NCBI GenBank assembly: GCA_032622095.1
Contig: CP136061.1
Location: 38,447,797-38,511,796, forward strand
Reading direction: 5' to 3'
From: Siphonodentalium dalli
Lineage: Eukaryota > Mollusca > Scaphopoda > Gadilida > Siphonodentaliidae
Length of the DNA: 64,000 nucleotides
A program made the position numbers and the translations under genes. The notes under the pieces are model-generated. The model was not told where the DNA came from and did no database searches. It saw only the letters and a program-made list of their open reading frames with translations. Below, piece after piece: positions 9,791-63,813 of this stretch. Each line of letters begins with the position of its first letter. Within the stretch, counting starts at the first letter, position 1.

Positions 9791-10602
9791 CTAGTGATCA
9801 GAAAGTGACAATATGCTTCATACACTGAGAACATTTAGAGAGAATAAATATAAATCGCAAAAAATATCCTTAATTTTTTTCCAATATGTCAGCCATTATG
9901 GCAGGCATTTTGTTTATTTTTGGCCAATAATTATCTTAAATCAAAGATACATATTCCCTGGATAGAATGTATCAATTATTACTGATCATGTGTTTATATT
10001 CACCTGCTCACAAGAGATTGAAATTACTGAGTGGATGCAAAAGTCATCATCGAGAATTATTAATGAAATATGTCAATTTTCATACCTGTTGATTCCATCT
10101 CCAAATATACGGCTCTTTCCAACTCTTATTTCTTACAAATGGTTCCAAATTGTTCTTATATGACTGTTCTTATGATAGACAGTAAAATATCTCCAATGTG
10201 CTAAGCAATCTCAGAAAAAAATTAGAAGATTTTCAATATTTCGCAAAAAATCATAGATTTTTTTCAATTTTGGCAGTCATTTTGGTCTCATTTTGGCAGC
10301 CATCTTGGATTTTTATGGCCATCAGTCGTCTAAATGAAAGACAGACATCTCCTGGATAGAATACATCAATCATTACCTCCCAGGTGTTAATATCCATCTG
10401 CCCACAAGAGATTGAAATTAGTAAGTGGAATATCGGATCACTAAACGCTCTCTACGAGATGATGACGTCATAACTCGGAACTGGGTCATTTTCTGGCTGG
10501 GGTCCAACTCTTATTTTGATCACAACAACTTAGCCTACATATGTGTTAAGTTTCATGCTTTTAACAAAAAATGCACAAAAAAGTTGCTAAGTCACCCCAC
10601 TA

Positions 10603-11013
10603 ATAGAGGAATCACCCTTCTAAGTTGTTTCCCTCAACTTTTTACATCAGTTATTAATAATCGAATATCGTCATTTGCAGAAGACAATGACTTGATAAAT
10701 AAAATTCAAACAGGTTTTCGTAAGGGTCACTCAACAATAGATAATATATTTATTCTGCATGCTCTGATAAACGTATACCTGCAGAGCGGACGAAAGATAT
10801 ATTGTACTTTTATTGACTTCCGAAAAGCATTTAACACTGTATGGAGAGATGCTCTATGGTTGAAACTTATACAAGCAGATATAAACGGTAAGATTATACG
10901 GGTAATACGAAGCATGTACGAGAATATCAAATTATGTGTGAAAAACAATAATTCGAAATCAGACTTCTTTATCAGCCAGATAGGCTTATTTCAAGGTGAG
11001 CCAATGTCACCTC
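10603..11013 (+). pseudogene. LINE reverse transcriptase, right fragment
   Basis: Continues the fragment at 4885-5283 in frame. It has RGITLLSCF, INNRISSFAEDNDLINKIQT, GFRKGHSTIDNI, then the palm motif A region YCTFIDFRKAF (10801-10833; the first Asp of the motif is intact) and an ISQIGLFQGEPMSPLF segment where QG..SP corresponds to RT motif B. The sequence ends abruptly after SPLF, before the YADD box, so the LINE is truncated at both ends as well as split. Confidence 0.85.
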
Positions 11014-11145
11014 TTTTTATTAACAGCAATAGTATTTTCGTTGCAAGGTGCGGTTTTTGACGGGTCAGCATGACGTGGAACAAGAAAACTAAGATGCATG
11101 CATCAGATCGGCCGTGAACTATCTACCATAGAATTGTTGTAGCTA

Positions 11146-19043: not shown

Positions 19044-19132
19044 ATGCTCACAGCAGACGATAAACAAAATATAAAAGATTCGTGGTCAAATGTAGCTGAT
19101 CTCGGCCAGTTTGGATATGATTTCTTCTTTAC
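19044..19132 (+). CDS. Globin 1 exon 1 (helix A to B12)
   Basis: 89 nt coding 29 codons plus two bases. It begins MLTADDKQNIKDSW and ends in FGYDFFF plus the split Thr codon AC|C. The donor GTAAGT follows immediately. The start is the only in-frame Met and matches the helix A start of globins 2 and 3. Confidence 0.92.
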
Positions 19133-35401: not shown

Positions 35402-35499
35402 ATGGCGATGAATCTGACCGCAGATGATAAGGCAGCTGTCCAACATTCTTGGTCAAAGGTCACGGATATCGAAGTTTTCGGACATGATTTCTTTTATAC
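35402..35499 (+). CDS. Globin 2 exon 1 (helix A to B12)
   Basis: 98 nt, 32 codons plus two bases. It starts MAMNLTADDKAAVQHSW and ends HDFFY plus split Thr AC|T, followed by GTGAGT. A second Met at codon 3 aligns with Met1 of globin 1 more closely, so either could initiate. Confidence 0.92.
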
Positions 35500-38400
35500 G
35501 TGAGTATTATGTATGTACCTGGCTGTTTTTGGCGATCGACGTATACGATTGTAGGGACAAACAAACACAGGTGTGATTTAATCACACCCGACACCAGTGG
35601 GATCAACTGTCTTTCGAAATAGCAGCGTCGCTCAATACAATTCCGTATATATTTAGTCAATGAGGGTATTTTAGGGAAATACGCGAATATATGTATTAAT
35701 TTTGGCTACATATATTGACATATATGTGTGTGACGAAAATGAACCGTATGCAACATAAGCATGTAATGAGATATGCCGTCGCGTTTTGTTCACGCTTTAG
35801 CAATTCCGATTTACGGGGGTCATGCGACATGTTGTTTGTATTCCCTCGCTTAAAACTTAACAGCTCATTTTTCTTTAATATCATTAAACCAACGAGCGTG
35901 GTATTTGAAATATATTTAGATATGCGCATCGACATCATCACATCTTTACAGCCCTTTCCTGCTATTACAGATACGGGCGGTGTTGGCGGTGGGTATGGTC
36001 CGCCAAAAGCCGCCATAAATATAAAGAGTATTTCTGCAACGAACGCCGCCCGTGCCTTCAAAATCCGAATAACAGCTAGAGGTCTGGTTCCATGATCAGA
36101 TATACTTCCATAGTATCGTCATTCTAATCATGTACTGTATCTGTGTGCTAGTACATCAAGTAAGGATAACCTGGTACTTCTGACCTGAATTGCCATTCCG
36201 ACCGAATACACACTGCTTTGTTTTATGTCATATGGTTCAAACCTTCGCGGCAACGCTTGATAGTTTATGCCAGTATAATGCATCATGTTACTAGCCAACT
36301 GAGCTACCTGTGCCCCACAGCAAACATTTTGTTTCGATTCGGTGGAGCGAAATTTTACTACTAACCACCTCTCCTCCCCAGGACTCCAAATCATGTCCGA
36401 AACTTTGCGTGTCTGATGCCCCGTAACATAGAGCAAAATGCTACAGAGCAAATTAAGGGCCTATAACTCTGGTATTTAGCAACGTATTTTGAAAATTATT
36501 TCAGTTTCGGATTCAGTTTATTTTAGAAGATAGATGACTACACAAGCTGGTTATTATTTTCTGATTCGCAACATTTTAGATACCTATTTTCGGCTTGGTC
36601 TTATTAAACATTTTCCAAATTATATAATACTAGCAGGTTAGCCCGCCACCGGCGGCTTGTCCGAAACATTGTTTATATATTTTTTTAATTTTTAGCTCCA
36701 CGCGTTTCAATAAGAAAAAATTGTACCCGGTAGCTCCACCCGTTTCCGAGATCTGGTCTGCGCATGCGCGAAGCTGGCTTCGCACGGACTCGGCGACCCG
36801 ATCAAATTTGTACCCGGCCCAAGATACATTCACATAGCAAATTTCAAGTCGATAGCTCCACCCGTTTCCGATATCTCGTCTGCGCATGCGCTGCACGGGC
36901 GTCGCATGGGCTCGGCGACCCGATAAAATTTGTACCCGGCGCAAGATACATTCACATTGCAATTTTCAAGTCGATAGCTCCACCCGTTTCCGAGATCTGC
37001 CTTTTTAATCGAGATAAATGCATTTCGTACCCGTCCTAATGTACTATTTCGAGCGATAACAATTGTCAGACTCCCATCGTGAACCTCAACACGAAGTAAA
37101 CACGTGTTTCGAGCGATAACATTGCATTGAAGTCAGACTCCCATCGTGGACCCCCAAGACGACGTAAACACGTGTTTGTTCCCGTATAACTCTGGAGACT
37201 CTGACTTCATATATATATATAATGACGTTATTAACCCCGGCCGTGCCGTTTGAGCTGATTTTAATGACTGGGAGTGGAGTACGGGTGCTCGGAGCTTCTG
37301 GAAAACGCGTGGACGACATCGTACGTGGTATTTTACCTCTAGATGGGAAGTTTGAGCTCAATCTGTCCAGCCGTTGTACTATTTCGAGCGATAACAATTG
37401 TCAGACTCCCATCGTGAACCTCAACACGAAGTAAACACGTGTTTCGAGCGATAACATTGCATTGAAGTCAGACTCCCATCGTGGACCCCCAAGACGACGT
37501 AAACTCCCATCGTGGACCCCCAAGACGACGTAAACACGTGTTTGTTCCGGTATAACTCTGGAGACTCTGACTTCATATATATATATAATGACGTTATTAA
37601 CCCCGGCCGTGCCGTTTGAGCTGATTTTGATGAATGGGAGTGGAGAACGGGTGCTCTGAGCTTTTCTAAACCGCGACCACTTTCGTGTCGGTGGGATTTG
37701 ACACTTACATAGGAAATTTGATCTCAATCTGTACACGCGTTTTGGATTCTATGAAGTACACACACACGGAAGTCTCAAAATATATAGTATAGACTAGCAG
37801 GTTAGCCCGCCACCGGCGGCTTGTCCGAAACATTGTTTATATTTTTTTTTAATTTTTAGCTCCACGCGTTTCAATAAGAAAAAATTGTACCCGGTAGCTC
37901 CACCCGTTTCCGAGATCTGGTCTGCGCATGCGCGAAGCTGGCTTCGCACGGGCTCGGCGACCCGATCAAATTTGTACCCGGCCCAAGATACATTCACATA
38001 GCAAATTTCAAGTCGATAGCTCCACCCGTTTCCGATATCTCGTCTGCGCATGCGCTGCACGGGCGTCGCATGGCCTCGGCGACCCGATAAAATTTGTACC
38101 CGGCGCAAGATACATTCACATTGCAATTTTCAAGTCGATAGCTCCACCCGTTTCCGAGATCTGCCTTTTTAATCGAGATAAATGCATTTCGTACCCGTCC
38201 TAATGTACTATTTCGAGCGATAACAATTGTCAGACTCCCATCGTGAACCTCAACACGAAGTAAACACGTGTTTCGAGCGATAACATTGCATTGAAGTCAG
38301 ACTCCCATCGTGGACCCCCAAGACGACGTAAACACGTGTTTGTTCCCGTATAACTCTGGAGACTCTGACTTCATATATATATATAATGACGTTATTAACC

Positions 38401-41400
38401 CCGGCCGTGCCGTTTGAGCTGATTTTAATGACTGGGAGTGGAGTACGGGTGCTCGGAGCTTCTGGAAAACGCGTGGACGACATCGTACGTGATATTTTAC
38501 CTCTAGATGGGAAGTTTGAGCTCAATCTGTCCAGCCGTTGTACTATTTCGAGCGATAACAATTGTCAGACTCCCATCGTGAACCTCAACACGAAGTAAAC
38601 ACGTGTTTCGAGCGATAACATTGCATTGAAGTCAGACTCCCATCGTGGACCCCCAAGACGACGTAAACACGTGTTTGTTCCGGTATAACTCTGGAGACTC
38701 TGACTTCATATATATATATAATGACGTTATTAACCCCGGCCGTGCCGTTTGAGCTGATTTTGATGAATGAGATTGGAGAACGGGTGCTCTGAGCTTTTCT
38801 AAACTGCGACCACGGTCGTGTCGGTGAGATTTGACACTTACATAGGAAGTTTGATCTCAATCTGTACACGCGTTTTGGATTCTATGAAGTACACACACAC
38901 ATATATACACACATATATACACACATATATACGAAGTCTCAAAATATATAGTATAGATACGTTTCCTAATGTTATTAAGCTACGCTGAACATAAATTGGT
39001 ATATGTTATGCGGTTTTCCATTTTTATATATATAATTTATATACAATAATCTCTATACAATTTGTATTATATTGCGGATATTATTCCATTTGAATCCCTC
39101 CATACACTGATGATAAGTTTTGGGCCCAGTCCCATATATGTAACAGTCCTGTCTTAGATCTATAGGATGTTCTACCTAATTAATGGTGAGTACATTACAA
39201 TTCGTGCAAGTAAGTACGATATGTGTATAGCACCACTCAACTTATCATCTGACAGTACAGCCAATGCATAAGGAGACACTTATTTTTACAAATAAGAAAA
39301 TTTCCCGATAGTACAATCAGGAAAATCACATTTGTCCATGTTGTCAAACATAGGTTTTCACCTGTATTCCACGGGTTTCTATATATTACAACTGAAATGT
39401 TAACTATATCCTAGACGAGAATAATGTGAAGTGTCGCGGAAAATAAACCTAATTATAACTGAATACTGCTGTATAAGTGTCAATGATGATCATCTGAGGA
39501 TAGGACTTAACAAAGGCCCCCAAGCTTGTTGCTCAATCCTCTTTTGAACAATTTGAGATTATATGTTATGTATTTTTTGTTTGTTTTTCTGTTCTGTTTA
39601 GTGTTCAAATAAAATATTGTTTAAACCAAGGATGATCATCTGGATAATGCCACCCCCCCCCCCTCCCATCGAGGCTGACGATGGGGACAAACGTTGCAAA
39701 AAGGTGCGTTTGCATCCCCCTCATAACCGACAAGCTTTCTGTGACGTGCCGCCGATTGTATTGGAATGTGATCTCTTTGGGCCAATTTGTGGGTTACCGT
39801 CATCAAATGCATCCACTGGGAACACCATTCTGTCGGGCCATATCTGGTATGGGAGACCTAGACAGATATTTAAGCCCAGGTGGTGACGAAGCTGGCGTGC
39901 ACCCAGTGGGCACATCGATCGTGAATTATGTCGTCTGCCAATTTGGGGACATAGAGAAACTAAACTAAAACAGAACAAGAACATTCTAAAGAGGTTTCTG
40001 ATGATACTAGATAATTTGATAATAGAGATACTTCCCAAAGAAGGTGAGGCTTGAGCAGAATGAGCTCCCAAAAGGTGAAATTGCTGATGATAGCCCGCAA
40101 AAATTCATTGAGGCATGTTTTGTTTTGAACTTGGTTGAAAAATATTTATTGTAACACAATTTACAAGGGATTGGGGGACAAGTTATTACAATTTAAGGTG
40201 GCCCCGCTCCCCCACAATATTTACACAAATGTTTAAACAAGATGAATAACAGATATAATGTACACGTAATAATAAGAATGTTGGTGATGATGATGTCTTG
40301 TGATTGATGTTACCGGTCCTGAGATCCTCTCCTATAGATATCATGCCATGCCGTGCCGTAAGTCGTTTACGACTGTTCTTCGTTAAGTGAAACGTTTGCT
40401 TTCTGAGATATATTTTGAACAATGTAAAAGAGTAGTTGCAATTGGTTTCGATGCTGTGGAATGTTTGGGGCGCCTCTGAGTAAATGGTTTACGTCTACTA
40501 TTGTGAAAGCATACTCATCTAGTCTGTCAAAACATTTAATTCTTTGTGGTCGGAATAATGAACATTCGAAAAAGACGTGTAAGGCATCCCCGATCTCTGT
40601 GCCACAATTACACACTGGGCTTTCGGCTATAAAGTTACCATACACATCTAAGCGGAGTTCACTGCAACCGTTGCGAATTTTTAGAATGGATATTATTTTC
40701 TTTCCGACTCCCAGTTTGAACTTCTAAAGCGATCTGTATAATGGTGGTAGGCAAGGTACTTGGGGTTTAGACAGGTAGTCACATATACATGCGTCTATTT
40801 CAACGCCATGTTGTTTTCCCCAAAAACAGAATTTGGCGGATTTCAACTGTGTTCTTCTATCACAATGTTTTTTTGATAAAGATGACCATAACAACTTGTT
40901 TGAAAATTGCATGACAATTCTGACGGACTACGTAACTTTCGGCGATGCTCTATAAATATACACACATGCATCTTGTTTCAGTTTGTTCATCATAAACCCA
41001 GATGCACAAAAGAAATTCGAATGCTTCGATGGAAAACCAACAGAATCGTTGAAAGGTAGCGCACTACTGAAATCACATGGCGCGAAGGTCATGGATAAAA
41101 TGGACAGTCTCGTGAAAAACATAGATAACGACGTTATAGTAAAAAAGGTGCTGGGTATCTTCGGAACTTTTCACAAAGACCGTGGGATCGACTCTCATTA
41201 CATGCTGGTGAGTACCAATACATGCCCAAATAAGAGTTGTGTGTTGATTTATAAAATTCATGGCAGTTCTGTGCTTCAACATGATGTCATATACAAATGT
41301 AGAACACAGTATGGATAGTATATATTTATTTTATTTATTTAATTAATTGGCTAGAACGCTGTGGAATTTAAAGGAGGTCCTCCGAGAACGTAATAGGTCA

Positions 41401-53400: not shown

Positions 53401-56197
53401 ATATATAAATATACCGTTACAACGCCGAGTCGTTTAAACCTGTCATGGCGGGAGCTGCGCTGGTCCAGCATTAAATACCATGTGTCTCTGGTCTCCCATA
53501 GGGAGCATCGCATATATAAGATAATGCACTGGCTTGCAAATCAAGATAACTTTTTTTGGGCCAATGTATTCTGTATATGCGAGGCTCCATATAGTCGATA
53601 AGTTCATGTAATACATAGAAAAAGACAACAACATCGTTCATAATTGAGAATGTTCTTTAACCCTTCCATAACTGGAGTTTCCTGAAATTTTACAACAAAA
53701 ACCGTGTGCCCAATGCGCGTTCTCTTATATATGCGAATCTCCCACATGGAGCGTCGCATATATGTAAGAGAATACATTGGCCTAACAATATTTACCTTGA
53801 CATTGTAAGCCTCTATGAGATAACTCAGTGGCACAGGATATTTAATGCTGCACTAGGGGAGCTCCCGTAATGAAAGGGTTATTGTCTACCGTTTTTGGAC
53901 GACAAAAGCGTGAACGCTCTACACAAGAGGCGATACTTGTGTTTGTTGCTGGGATGACCACTATTAAAACTTGCTAAATAGAGGATCTCTAATGAGTCTC
54001 AATTATATATGAAATTTATTAACCGAGTGGACTAAATTCGATTCGACCCGAGCTTTCTCTCATATCACATTTTAGCAAGGAAAAACTATCTCGAAACGGC
54101 TGCATGCGGTTAAACATAATTAATATTGATTTCCTTATCACAATCAAAGAGGAAGAAAAGACACCTTCAATAAATGTTAAATGTGTCTTTTCGTGTAGAA
54201 TAACATATGTATTCGTGCTGGTAATAATGGTGTTTGTGTAATTTATTTGCTATAAGACTCGGTTTATTTGCAAAATATATTTACGTACAGATATATATAT
54301 ATATATGTACATATTAACCCTTTACCCAACAAACCGGCCAAAACCGGCCAAATAAAGCTTCAACAGCCTAAAATATCTGTCTCAATAGAACCATACAAAT
54401 ATGGATATCATTGGAACCGGATCCTTGACCACATTGTGATAGTTACAGTTATGCCCTGTGCCAATGCATTCTCTTATATATGCGAGTCGACCATATTTCG
54501 CCTCGCATATATAAGAGAATGCATTGGCCTAAATAAAATATTTGTTTACCATTTTTCTTACATTCTTTAACAATTTTATAATTTTTAATGTGTTAAGCCA
54601 ATGCATTCTCTTATATATGCGAGGCGACCTATGGTCGACTCGCATATATAAGAGAATGCATTGGCACAGGGCCGTTCTGTTGGGTAAAGGGTTAATATTC
54701 TAATTAACATAATAATAACATTGATCGATATAATTGCGCTAGCTCTTACGCCACCTCGCGTGCGGATAATTAACTTATATCTTATTAAAATATGTTATAA
54801 GATGACAGGAATTGAATGATAACACCTTTATAGACTCATTAGTGTATAATGCACACAAGCTATCTGCCTTCTGCGAAGCCTTTATCAAGTGAAAAAGTGA
54901 TAATGGCTTCACAGAACGCCGAATGCTTGTGTGTATTTTCACCAATGAGAATATAAAGGTGCTATCATTCAAATCCTGTCATCTTATAACTTTATGATAT
55001 AATCTTGTTTACATTATACACCCATGAGACTATAAAGGTGTTATCACTCAAATCCTGTCATCTTATAACTTTATGATATAATCTTGTTTACATTATACAC
55101 CCGTGAGACATAAATGTTCTGTGAAGCCTTCATCAATGAAATGACAATCGATGAAACACGTTAGAAGTTTGACGTTAAACGTGATAGACTCACTAAAATT
55201 TCAACTTAACAGGCAAAATAGATCTGAAACATAATTGCAATCACCATCATTTGTAACATACCCGGGGTCCACAAAATCACCCGAATAACACGTCGAATAC
55301 TATCACAAAGGCTCTTGACTGTGAACGCTCTGTATTAGCTACCGCTTAATGACAACATATTCATGGACGCTCTTTATTAGCTACCGCTTAATGACAACAT
55401 ATTCATGGACGCTCTTTATTAGCTACCGCTTATTGACAACATATTCATAAACGCTCTTTATGAGATGATCATTGCAACCTTTTTGCTGGGCGGACAAAAA
55501 ATTAAAAAAAATGTGTTAAAACTCAATGTTTGGAACGTCGATATCTGGACATCACAACCTCCCATTGACGAATTGATTGATTGGTGGGAGGTTTACTGTC
55601 GCTTTCAGCAGTTAGGGCCAGATCACGACATTGCCAGTATTAGTGGTGGAGGAAAGCTGCAAACTTATGGCTAATCTAACAGTGATTTCAATGGCTGATA
55701 AACTCGTCGACCATGTGCGGCAACCCATCGACCATCGGCGAGTTACTGGCAACTCCGCCAGATAACGATTTCGAGTGATAGGGTTCACGATGGAAGCATG
55801 TGGTTTTGAACCATCATCGCCAGCGCTGGAGGGCGAAACGGTTGGAGTTGTACCCCTAATCGATTGAGCCACCGAGCCCCCCCCCCCATTTGATGGAATC
55901 GTGGGTTTGATATATTTATTTTCTGATATAGAAGACGTTCACATGTTGGTTTTATGGTGTCCAATCGGACAGAGTATCTTTAATGATTGCGTTTTACATG
56001 TACTTTCAGGACGCTGCGAATCGGACAGAGTATCTTTAATGATTGCGTTTTACATGTACTTTCAGGACGCTGCGAAGGCGATAGAGACAGTACTGAAGGG
56101 CATTATGGATTCGGCCTTCACGTCGTCGATGGCTTACTCGTGGCGCAGGTTGTGTGTGGAGTTAGGGCGTTCCATAGATGATGCCAATCATTCATAG
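35402..56197 (+). CDS. Globin 2, three exons, 151 aa
   Basis: Intracellular-type single-domain globin, tandem paralogue of globin 1. Exons are 35402-35499, 40982-41207 and 56066-56197. Introns are at B12.2 (phase 2) and G7.0 (phase 0), with GTGAGT donors and TTTCAG acceptors. Haem-pocket landmarks are Phe31 (B10), Pro39 (C2), Phe45 (CD1), His65 (E7, in KSHG) and His97 (F8, in FGTFHKDRG). There is no signal peptide. Intron 1 is 5.5 kb and intron 2 is 14.9 kb, both packed with mobile elements. The exon 3 acceptor is duplicated by a 56-bp tandem repeat. That exon 3 belongs to this gene is inferred from phase, strand, order and sequence; it is 15 kb away, and a transcript would settle it. Confidence 0.85.
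35960..36058. mobile_element. Short (about 100 bp) deletion derivative of T1
   Basis: ATACGGGCGGTGTTGGCGGT at the left and GCCGCCCGTGCCTT at the right are T1-like inverted ends with only about 60 bp between them. No TTAA is left at either side. It lies in globin 2 intron 1. Confidence 0.45.
36225..36325 (-). mobile_element. tRNA-derived SINE head
   Basis: On the minus strand GGTAGCTCAGTTGGCTAG is an excellent A box/D-arm and AAGGTTTGAACC an excellent B box, about 55 nt apart, so the anticodon/variable region is longer than in a tRNA. The downstream non-tRNA sequence runs toward 36150. A polymerase III SINE is the best reading. Confidence 0.55.
36630..37793 (-). mobile_element. Helitron-like element H4, first of a tandem pair
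   Basis: On the minus strand it starts TCTATACTATATATTTTGAG and ends with hairpin CCGCCGGTGGCGG, then GCTAACCTGCTAG followed by T. The next copy (H5) abuts it with no intervening base. Internal subrepeats of about 123 bp contain CCCGTTTCCGAGATCT and CGCATGCGC. A second tandem section contains GTTCCCGTATAACTCTGGAG and ATAATGACGTTATTAACCCC. No Rep/helicase is present. The ORFs are by-products. Confidence 0.75.
37794..38957 (-). mobile_element. Helitron-like element H5, second of a tandem pair
   Basis: Nearly identical to H4 at an offset of 1164 bp. It lacks a 31-bp duplication present in H4 near 37500 and instead has an (ATATATACACAC)n expansion near 38900. The minus-strand 5' end TCTATACTATATATTTTGAG is preceded by A, so the pair as a whole sits between A and T, consistent with a Helitron target. 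Confidence 0.75.
38958..40366. other. No recognised feature
   Basis: AT-rich intron 1 sequence of globin 2, with a C run at 39652-39662 and a retroposon-like end CAAATAAAATATTGTTTAAA near 39606. Overlapping ORFs at 39617-39968 are not recognisable. Confidence 0.3.
40367..40920 (-). pseudogene. LINE ORF2 C-terminal fragment
   Basis: Minus-strand frames 40912-40724 and 40645-40367 with a break between them. The second has VCNCGTEIGDALHVFFECSL, the C-x-C-x(9)-H-x(4)-C type motif found at the C-terminus of I/Jockey-like LINE polymerases, then FRPQRIKCFDRL and a helical tail. It lies in globin 2 intron 1, antisense to the gene, ending 60 bp before exon 2. Confidence 0.65.
40982..41207 (+). CDS. 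Globin 2 exon 2 (B12 to G6)
   Basis: 226 nt. It carries LFIINPDAQKKFECF (helix C/CD1), LKSHGAKVMDKM (E7 His) and FGTFHKDRGI (F8 His), ending HYML before GTGAGT. Acceptor CTTGTTTCAG. Confidence 0.93.
42110..42440. mobile_element. Paired-hairpin MITE, right part extended
   Basis: Two 67-nt hairpin modules at 42129-42195 and 42277-42343, each CCAATGCATTCTCTTATAT...GAATGCATTGG, face each other around 81 bp of TTGTTAAAGAATGTAAGAAC-like spacer. The right flank GCATAACTGTAACTTTCACA to 42430 is the reverse complement of 54370-54460, so this belongs to the same MITE subfamily as the element at 54318-54691, but the outer CCCTTTACCC termini are missing. It lies in globin 2 intron 2. Confidence 0.7.
42881..46855. 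mobile_element. 4.0 kb long-TIR element E2, no transposase seen
   Basis: Begins TAGTGTGGTCGTGG and ends CGACGACCACACTA, flanked by the 3-bp duplication TAA (42878-42880, 46856-46858). About 0.9 kb at each end are inverted copies (42881-43800 against 46010-46855), with landmarks ACATATCCAAAATCCGCT, AAGATGGCGTCCAACATGG and AAAATGGCGG. The middle 2.1 kb is unique and has only short ORFs (the longest is 93 codons at 45291-45572, not recognised). Terminal bases, duplication length and ATGGC-rich arms resemble E1, suggesting a non-autonomous relative. Confidence 0.8.
46859..47368. other. No recognised feature
   Basis: AT-rich intron 2 sequence of globin 2 with a short (TA)n at 47207-47221; nothing further seen. 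Confidence 0.3.
47369..47769 (-). mobile_element. Helitron-like element H6 (401 bp)
   Basis: On the minus strand it starts TCTATTATATATTTTGGAAC and TTCTCTCTTTATG, and ends with a CAGGACGAAGTCGGGCATAT hairpin region, then CAGCTAG followed by T. The interior resembles H2 (CCCGGGATCAA, GTGCGACCGTGTCC on the minus strand). The base before the 5' TC is G rather than A. Confidence 0.7.
47810..50582. mobile_element. 2.8 kb element E3 with duplicated CTGTCACACT ends
   Basis: Left outer end CCCCTGTCACACTCAGGCCG and right outer end CGGCCTGAGTGTGACAGGGG are perfect inverted repeats over 20 bp. Two more related ends lie inside: CTGTCACACTCCGCTGCGAT near 48415 and ATCGCAGCGGAGTGTGACAG near 50266-50285. 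Between 47810 and 48110, and inverted at 50035-50285, is a GCGC-rich arm with AAAACAAGCGC hairpins (GCGCTTGTTTTGTGCATGCA) and CCAAGCGAGCG. The centre (48500-49900) is AT-rich with a C run at 48931-48948 and diverged TTGGAAATTTCCAAC repeats. No transposase found and no clear target duplication. Confidence 0.65.
48960..49620 (+). repeat. Diverged repeats of GTTGGAAATTTCCAAC inside E3
   Basis: CATCAGTTGGAAATTTTCCA followed by ACCTCAGG and similar units occur near 49140, 49300 and 49545, each with GGTTTGAAATTTCCAAC following. The core GTTGGAAATTTCCAAC is itself palindromic. No ORF is conserved. Confidence 0.5.
50590..51605. other. No recognised gene; short tandem repeat near its end
   Basis: Intron 2 of globin 2. 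The unit CAGTAAATTATAATGAGGTT with AAGAGACTTACAT is repeated about 2.5 times at 51480-51575. Nothing else seen. Confidence 0.4.
51610..51741. repeat. Near-perfect palindrome, about 132 bp
   Basis: Core 51625-51724 begins GTGAAATACGCCGATATAGT and its exact complement ends the right arm; arms of about 45 nt flank a short centre (CTCCGCTTCGCGTCG). Outside the core, AGAGCATGACTT and AAGCAATGCTCT extend the symmetry with one mismatch. The T1 copy at 51750 begins eight bases after its right edge. It could extrude as a cruciform; probably a fold-back MITE. Confidence 0.85.
51750..52242 (-). mobile_element. TTAA MITE family T1, copy 3 (493 bp)
   Basis: TTAA at 51746-51749 and 52243-52246. Ends AGGTACGGTTGGCC and GGCCTCACGTGCCT. 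Reverse complement of 2164-2656 and very similar to it, also of the same length. It lies in globin 2 intron 2. Confidence 0.85.
52243..52830. other. No recognised feature
   Basis: Spacer between the two T1 copies, with a C run at 52624-52635. The ORFs on the minus strand at 52512-52912 partly overlap T1 and are not genes. Confidence 0.35.
52831..53324 (-). mobile_element. TTAA MITE family T1, copy 4 (494 bp)
   Basis: TTAA at 52827-52830 and 53325-53328. Same orientation as copy 3 and nearly the same sequence; the two copies are separate insertions because each has its own TTAA pair and the flanks differ. Confidence 0.85.
53450..53600. repeat. Decayed hairpin-MITE fragment
   Basis: GCGGGAGCTGCGCTGGTCCA near 53448 and GCATATATAAGATAATGCAC near 53509, then GGGCCAATGTATTCTGTATA near 53558, are degraded pieces of the same hairpin module and end sequence as in 23024-23558. 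The TIR-like GACGGGAGCTGCGCTGGT also appears alone at 16241-16258. Confidence 0.5.
53661..53878. mobile_element. Single-hairpin MITE, TTAACCCTT type (218 bp)
   Basis: Left TTAA (53657-53660) then CCCTTCCATAACTGGAG; right end CTCCCGTAATGAAAGGG then TTAT. Contains one hairpin, GCGTTCTCTTATATATGCGA to TCGCATATATGTAAGAGAAT. It is a deletion relative of the element at 23024-23558, with which it shares TTTCCTGAAATTTTA after the left end. Confidence 0.7.
54318..54691. mobile_element. Paired-hairpin MITE with perfect TTAA/CCCTTTACCCAACA ends (374 bp)
   Basis: TTAA duplications at 54314-54317 and 54692-54695; terminal inverted repeats CCCTTTACCCAACA and TGTTGGGTAAAGGG are perfect over 14 bp. Hairpin modules are at 54461-54527 and 54597-54664, each 67-68 nt and near-perfectly palindromic, separated by a 69-bp TTCTTTAACAATTTT spacer. 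The left interior has AACCGGCCA twice and is shared with the element at 42110-42440. It is the best-preserved piggyBac-like member of the hairpin family. Non-coding; in globin 2 intron 2. Confidence 0.85.
54795..54989. mobile_element. Fold-back MITE, 195 bp
   Basis: TTATAAGATGACAGGAATTG at the left end and its near-complement, ending CCTGTCATCTTATAA, give inverted arms of about 55 bp. Inner landmarks are TGATAACACCTTTATA and TATAAAGGTGCTATCA. The centre contains GCACACAAGC and GCTTGTGTGT, extending the symmetry. Confidence 0.75.
54988..55145 (+). repeat. 79-bp tandem duplication of the MITE right end
   Basis: AACTTTATGATATAATCTTG at 54988 recurs at 55067; the unit includes TATAAAGGTGTTATCACTCA and CATCTTATA, so the MITE's right arm has been copied in tandem. 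Confidence 0.7.
55325..55463 (+). repeat. 42-bp minisatellite, 3.3 units
   Basis: ACGCTCTTTATTAGCTACCG recurs at 55325 (as ACGCTCTGTATT), 55367, 55409 and 55451, exactly 42 bp apart. The ACGCTCTTTAT part is also present in T1 and R2 repeats. Confidence 0.9.
55690..55890 (-). mobile_element. tRNA-derived SINE
   Basis: On the minus strand, just after a G run, CTCGGTGGCTCAATCGATTA gives an A-box region (TGGCTCAATCG) and GATGGTTCAAAACCAC a B box, about 55 nt apart. The tRNA-unrelated body continues toward 55690. It lies in globin 2 intron 2, 180 bp before exon 3. Confidence 0.5.
55963..56074 (+). repeat. 56-bp tandem duplication across the exon 3 splice acceptor
   Basis: AATCGGACAGAGTATCTTTA and the following bases, through TGTACTTTCAGGACGCTGCG, are present twice in direct tandem with a period of 56. 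Each unit contains the full polypyrimidine/CAG acceptor and the first 9 exon bases. Using the upstream AG (56008-56009) gives nine codons and then TAA (56037-56039). Using the downstream AG (56064-56065) gives the globin exon. Confidence 0.93.
56066..56197 (+). CDS. Globin 2 exon 3 (G7 to H)
   Basis: 132 nt including TAG. It begins DAAKAIETVLKGIM and ends WRRLCVELGRSIDDANHS. Phase 0 entry matches the exon 2 donor. WRRLC aligns with WRRLF of globin 1. A possible AATAAA polyadenylation signal lies at 56760-56765. Confidence 0.85.
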   Translation, partial: DAAKAIETVLKGIMDSAFTSSMAYSWRRLCVELGRSIDDANHS

Positions 56198-57655
56198 ATA
56201 ATAGTCTCATTCCTATAGCTATTAGACTCGACAGAAGACATGCTAATTCTAACATGCATGAATTTGAGAGGAGGTCCAGCGATCGATATTGATACATTCT
56301 GCAGTCGTGGTTAATCTAGTAAATGTGGAGCTTTTCTGTGTGGTTCATGCATGACAATGGATCACAATGCTTTCAACAGACAGTTTCAACAGACAGTTAT
56401 GACTACCTATATACAGTTACATGCATATAGCTATGAATACGTATACATCATACATGCGCTATAATTCTCAGATTAATTATATGAAGCATCTGTTTAACTA
56501 TATTTTTTATAACAGTTGATACATTATTATTATAAATGTGTACAGTAGAGCATGTCATGAATCACTACCTTGACTAGAGATCATATTCCATCAATTCAAA
56601 ACATGGGAACTTTTGATGTCCTGAGCCGTTCTGACAGACAGGGAATATATTTGATTGCTAACATTTGTTCCTCAATAATCTACTTCACATTGGGGGGGGG
56701 GGGGGTTGGTCCCAGTTCGAGATTTCATGTTGTTTGTGACTTTTGTAAACCAATATCGCAATAAACATTGAATTAATCATCCGGGAGAAATCCTATAATT
56801 TAAAGCTACGCAAAGCAAAAATTCGCACAAAGGCACTATAATTTTGCAAATTTTAGCTGTGACCTACACTGACGTACATTAATACGGAACAGGTAATAAC
56901 TATGAAATATATTACCTGCATTGTTTATTTTAATTTCAATGTTTGTTCACTTCCCTGTGACAATATAAAAACGTTCCCAGAAATTGTACTGGTGGACTAT
57001 GATCTATATGGGCGTCGAGATCATAATCATGGCATGTTATACATGTAGTTGTATAGTGAACTGAGTTTAGATACAAGGGCAAAGTACACACGAGTACCGT
57101 GATAGTCTCTACACAAAAATCCAAGAAGAGTCGAAAAGTGTCTACAATAAACAGGGTTTATACATGTATTCGCATTGTATCTAGGGATTGTCGTTCTTCG
57201 GGGGTCCATGTAGCCCCGAGTGACTGGCATCGAGGATATGCATGGCTGGTCTGACATTCAAACGTTATTATGTACATGTATACGTAGTTTGGTGGTGGGT
57301 CGACAAACATATACGAAACACGTATCAATATACATTGTGCAATATAGGGGAAAATACGTGAAACAACGGCACATAAATTATCCAGATGTAGCGGTTTTCA
57401 TGTCATTTTATCGCACATATGTGAGGTACAAACGCTATTTATGCTTGGCATAAAACAGTTTCGTTCTTTATTGTTTCGCGCCTTTAGAGACGACTTGAAT
57501 GAAATTTCCTGCGGCATAAAAGTAACAATCTGATAGACATCAGGGCCCAACGATGCATTTAAAACGACTTGACAAACATAAATCGCAACGCTGTATACAG
57601 TAACAGTCATGTGTTTTGCCCCCACAGTGCTACCGGAACAATGAAACACCCACAG
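56198..57655. other. Globin 2 3' flank, no recognised gene
   Basis: Contains a G run at 56692-56704 and AATAAA at 56760. Otherwise AT-rich without repeats or ORFs that I can assign. Confidence 0.3.
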
Positions 57656-63721: not shown

Positions 63722-63813
63722 ATGAAGCTGGATTCACAAATCATAGCAGCTATCCAGAACTCATGGGGCCTGGTCGCTGACCCAACCGTATTCGTCCACG
63801 ACTTGTTCTTTTT
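63722..63813 (+). CDS. Globin 3 exon 1 (gene continues past window)
   Basis: 92 nt, 30 codons plus two bases, ending at a GTAAGT donor in phase 2 exactly like globins 1 and 2. It encodes MKLDSQIIAAIQNSWGLVAD followed by PTVFVHDLFF, with Trp15 (A12) and Phe29 (B10). It is more diverged than globins 1 and 2 are from each other. Start context CACCATG is a good Kozak match. Exons 2 and 3 should lie beyond 64000. Confidence 0.8.

Follow-up and report, generated by a model that had tools for sequence, protein, structure and literature searches.

In the scaphopod mollusc Siphonodentalium dalli, the globin 2 gene carries a perfect tandem duplication of 56 bp which spans the end of its intron 2 and the start of its exon 3, so that one donor faces two identical and complete acceptors. 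The gene lies in a 64,000-nt window (the whole stretch analysed here, C1:38447797-38511796 of a 2.23-Gb genome in 9 contigs), and the analysis is based on a single assembly and on DNA sequence only. We give about an even chance to the reading that the two sites compete as equals, that the downstream one is mostly used, and that the duplication is a mildly harmful or neutral variant, neither a dead gene nor an evolved switch.

The upstream copy (55963-56018, forward strand, as are all the features below for which a strand is given) contains a branch candidate, a pyrimidine tract, an AG at 56008-56009 and nine nucleotides of exon 3, and it is identical at 56/56 bases to the downstream copy (56019-56074), whose AG lies at 56064-56065. 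Of the 56 bases in the unit, 47 close intron 2, with CAG at their end, and 9 open exon 3 (GACGCTGCG). Identity stops at the left border and extends two bases (AA, 56075-56076) past the right one, giving an array of 114 bp (55963-56076) which Tandem Repeats Finder scored as 2.0 copies with 100% matches (score 228). A chance match is excluded for a perfect adjacent repeat of this length, and among the matches listed by the DNA searches, where full-length ones would rank first, the array is present at one place in the assembly. The original prediction of a perfect duplication of the acceptor with its first exon bases thus holds in its coordinates and its identity. The two acceptors are the same from -47 to +11 and therefore any local strength score has to be equal for both. 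Together, the direct repeat, the single donor and the two complete acceptors identify a tandem-duplicated 3' splice site, its branch points being motif matches.

Globin 2 is a complete three-exon gene with an intact start and matching intron phases (2 and 0). Exon 1 (35408-35499) opens with the ATG at 35408, with a further in-frame ATG at 35402, and ends in phase 2; exon 2 (40982-41207) encodes H63 and H95 and ends in phase 0 (ATG CTG/gtgagt), which sets the frame of exon 3 as GAC GCT GCG after an intron of 14,858 nt. From the acceptor at 56066, this frame stays open for 43 codons up to the TAG at 56195-56197 (coding part of exon 3, 56066-56197), and the product is a globin of 149 residues. 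From the acceptor at 56010, it reads nine codons (DAANRTEYL) and then the TAA at 56037-56039, for a product of 115 residues. The translations agree with what had been proposed from the sequence alone: nine added codons and a stop for the upstream copy, the normal protein for the downstream one, and a difference in frame between the two. In an alignment with cytoglobin 6q6p, H63 and H95 fall on histidines, as the proximal and distal histidines of a globin should, and introns in phases 2 and 0 are at the classic globin positions. The full product matched the Pfam family Globin (PF00042) with 68.2 bits, the curated cut-off being 22 (residues 26-136, positions 1-110 of the 117 in the profile), while the 115-residue product reached 56.6 bits over profile positions 1-79 of 117. 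A likely polyadenylation signal, AATAAA, is found at 56760-56765, and exon 3 would then be the terminal one; with the early stop in this apparent last exon, the mRNA of the 115-residue product should be spared by exon-junction-dependent decay.

The original prediction had also argued that the first AG met in a scan from the branch point is normally preferred, hence the upstream site, and here it could not be followed. Within 55940-56070, AGs start at 55971, 55973, 56008, 56027, 56029 and 56064. Searching for branch-like motifs (yTnAy, up to 60 nt from the intron end), we found TTAAT in each copy, the A lying 26 nt before the end of the intron, at 55983 in the upstream copy (motif 55980-55984) and at 56039 in the downstream one, and we regard it as the probable branch point. 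Two other matches are TTTAC, whose distance of 13 nt is probably too short in either copy, and TTTAT, at a distance of 55 nt and present for the upstream acceptor only. The preceding AG (55973 for the upstream acceptor, 56029 for the downstream one) sits 5' of each copy's own branch candidate, so that, going 3' from the best candidate of either copy through an AG-free stretch, the first AG met is that copy's acceptor. The scanning rule concerns AGs behind one branch point (PMC1431707). With a branch candidate in each copy, a rule of the first AG cannot decide, and two complete acceptors compete; the two acceptors, the differing frames and the truncated globin stand, and the scanning argument does not. 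The tract itself is ordinary for the globin family, with a pyrimidine fraction of 0.70 between -22 and -3, compared to a range of 0.65-0.95 over nine further globin acceptors that we examined.

The mechanism that we propose starts with a presumably recent 56-bp tandem duplication, the ends of which share 2 bp (AA); it copied the entire 3' splice site of intron 2, together with its candidate branch point. Being identical, the two sites would compete for U2AF and U2 on equal terms, with no part played by AG scanning. The downstream site would probably be used most, because the upstream one is followed by nine exon bases and then by intron-like sequence, whereas the real exon follows the downstream site; the main product would then be the normal globin, with the truncated protein as a minority product and possibly a lower total rate of splicing. 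Over the first 40 exon bases, purines make up 0.68 downstream versus 0.53 upstream, with three GAR motifs versus two, a weak pointer to the downstream site.

Pre-mRNAs with duplicated beta-globin 3' splice sites reportedly go back to Reed and Maniatis in 1986. Such pre-mRNAs, in which the upstream site was followed by 14, 55 or 205 exon bases, were spliced very inefficiently and to the distal site only, and the length of the proximal exon had previously been reported to matter (PMC5389562). Of the experiments that we found, this one comes nearest to globin 2: in both, the duplication concerns a globin acceptor, some exon sequence follows the upstream copy, and two complete sites compete for one donor. 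The globin 2 array differs in being natural, in having 9 exon bases behind the upstream site and an intron of 14,858 nt, and in coming from another animal. Acceptors of the NAGNAG type likewise offer two AGs to one donor, but these are three bases apart (PMC3250501), while those of globin 2 are 56 bases apart, each with its own branch candidate. Identical tandem acceptors are not treated in the passages of PMC11718197 and PMC12480690 considered here, which is no claim of their absence from print.

Several points weigh against a predominant use of the downstream site. Over 120 exon bases the purine fractions are 0.53 and 0.55 and there are five GAR motifs upstream and four downstream, so the pointer seen over 40 bases vanishes or turns. 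It is also the upstream site that emerges first during transcription and that has the shorter distance to the donor. The in vitro result on beta-globin was obtained with human-derived constructs in nuclear extract (PMC5389562). Finally, a tandem duplication over an intron-exon boundary of BRCA1 gave a cDNA which retained the duplicated piece of intron (PMC11839443).

In the first rival explanation, unlikely in our estimate, the upstream acceptor wins and globin 2 mainly makes the 115-residue protein without most of helices G and H, as a fresh loss-of-function allele tolerated through other globins. Equal local strength together with the upstream position speaks for it, the early stop should let the mRNA escape decay, and other globins are at hand, as C1:38.13-38.52 Mb contains 8 of the 23 matches to globin exons in the genome. 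Its precedent is the partial duplication of BRCA1 exon 10 (2012 bp), which also lies in tandem over an acceptor, is out of frame and reaches a stop after about ten residues; there, however, 1617 exon bases follow the upstream acceptor, compared to 9 in globin 2, and the authors called their assay not quantitative (PMC11839443). The backing of the upstream site by just nine exon bases argues against its victory, as do the duplicated beta-globin acceptors, which were spliced solely to the distal site (PMC5389562).

A pre-mRNA with a duplicated strong acceptor can bind two U2AF35 and two U2 small nuclear ribonucleoproteins and splices poorly; the authors infer, from a further construct with a duplication, that splicing drops when both sites are occupied (PMC5389562). 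It is conceivable, if distinctly unlikely, that the globin 2 array acts in this way as a brake on splicing, rather than as a switch through a stop codon, both sites being bound by U2AF and U2 at once, with splicing slowed and the output of globin 2 reduced whichever site is chosen. If true, nature would here provide an allele of the sort that we otherwise met only as constructs in extract.

We consider an assembly artefact, an overlap left unmerged, to be very improbable, although the identity is exact and a single assembly is the basis. Eighteen 8-kb stretches taken at fixed places (144 kb, no N) contained six perfect tandem duplications with units of 20-300 bp (20, 20, 24, 38, 50 and 65 bp, the last three falling within 30-100 bp), and five of the six had more than two copies. 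The window holds three (31, 42 and 56 bp) and the neighbouring globin locus L010 two (28 and 30 bp), and none were found in the loci L009 and L011. The unit lengths vary and show no one k-mer-like value, which argues against an artefact. From this sample, the rate is about 2e-5 per base (Poisson 95% interval 0.4-6e-5), that is about 46,000 in the genome (9,600-136,000). Assuming 150,000 acceptors and a 50-bp unit, about 90 (19-265) would be expected among acceptors before selection, as a rough count. Small duplications of this kind look common in the genome and the class of event looks ordinary.

More improbable still is that the two acceptors form a regulated switch for making either the whole or the truncated globin. 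Both sites are complete, but the copies are undiverged and a tandem copy is no feature of the family: within 540 nt upstream, it is absent at 9 of the 10 globin acceptors examined, globin 2 being the sole exception. The 0/56 differences between copies give an upper bound on divergence of 5.2% (95%), which is too loose for dating. A diverged copy of an acceptor was considered in the neighbouring paralogue at L011, where TTTCAGGATGCTGC, about 90 nt before exon 3, resembles globin 2 at 13 of 14 bases. It was taken as chance because 15 of 500 shuffles score as high and because the locus shows no resemblance to itself at this place (363 of 500 shuffles as high).

Intron gain, with a small exon starting at the upstream acceptor and a new intron ended by the downstream one, is hardly credible here: in the potato RNA-dependent RNA polymerase gene, a like duplicate also covers an intron's 3' end, including branch site and tract, together with the start of the following exon, but there a cryptic donor made the new intron and ten nucleotides differ between the copies (PMC4974935), whereas the globin 2 copies are identical and no usable donor was found among the three GTs inspected between the acceptors (56030, 56047 and 56056). 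The best of these, GTATCT at 56030, is weak and was rejected, as the exon would be 20 nt long and the intron 36 nt, with the frame shifted into a stop; the other two were rejected with introns even shorter than 36 nt.

The end of intron 2 is layered. A dispersed repeat, in two parts (5' part 55453-55566, 3' part 55899-55984), is split here by a high-copy element (55567-55888, no strand assigned, ends approximate and the left one inferred from the break of the repeat). In three other copies examined, the repeat is nearly unbroken, its parts lying 7, 17 and 60 nt apart (L006, L008 and L007, respectively). For the repeat, the best 40 of 278 candidates were scored, itself included, and 36 of the 39 other matches scored end at 55981-55986. 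For the inserted element, 40 of 1637 candidates were scored, giving at least 39 other matches with 88-90% identity. Neither a tRNA nor a known RNA was found in 55400-56100 and 55400-56300, and the element is therefore named only as resembling a short interspersed nuclear element (SINE-like). The last 22 bases of the dispersed repeat are the first 22 of the 56-bp unit, 22 of the 47 bases of duplicated intron, and its terminal CTTTAA would supply most of the branch candidate TTAAT. Since both units contain these 22 bases, the duplication postdates the repeat, which differs by 13-21% from its other copies among the matches scored, against 0/56 between the units. About 500 bp before the duplicated acceptor, a 42-bp unit is present in 3.3 copies (55325-55461). 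Intron 1 of globin 2 also holds a tandem duplication (36621-37511 and 37785-38675) with 14 mismatches in 891 bases (98.4% identity) and internal 122-bp repeats.

Globin 2 is one of several globin genes. Globin 1, also in the window, has exons starting at 19044, 22744 and 27773, and a third globin gene has its exon 1 at 63722 in the window and its exons 2 and 3 in L010. A search with exon 3 of globin 2 returned itself and two others, with 43% and 48% identity; a small profile also picked up exon 3 of globin 1 and exon 3 of the L011 gene, both weaker. At L009 (C1:46551600-46561500), two complete coding first exons lie 352 bp apart (C1:46552482 and C1:46552834). They are 62% identical over 90 nt, both end in phase 2 at a donor, and both precede the single exon 2 and single exon 3 found in L009; they are possibly alternative first exons changing helices A-B, or the remnant of a second gene. 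The genome's best-scoring globin-exon match, at C1:38221450-38221707 (L001), has one TGA inside the matched stretch, which may mean an exon end that was read through or a broken gene. Elsewhere in the window, an open frame at 10425-11060 resembles, by eye, part of a retroelement reverse transcriptase.

How the spliceosome decides when a long intron ends in two complete acceptors with the same local sequence can be tested cleanly, on a natural case, with the globin 2 array; the experiments that we found posed this choice with built constructs. For the gene, it is the choice of acceptor that decides between normal, lowered or lost globin 2.

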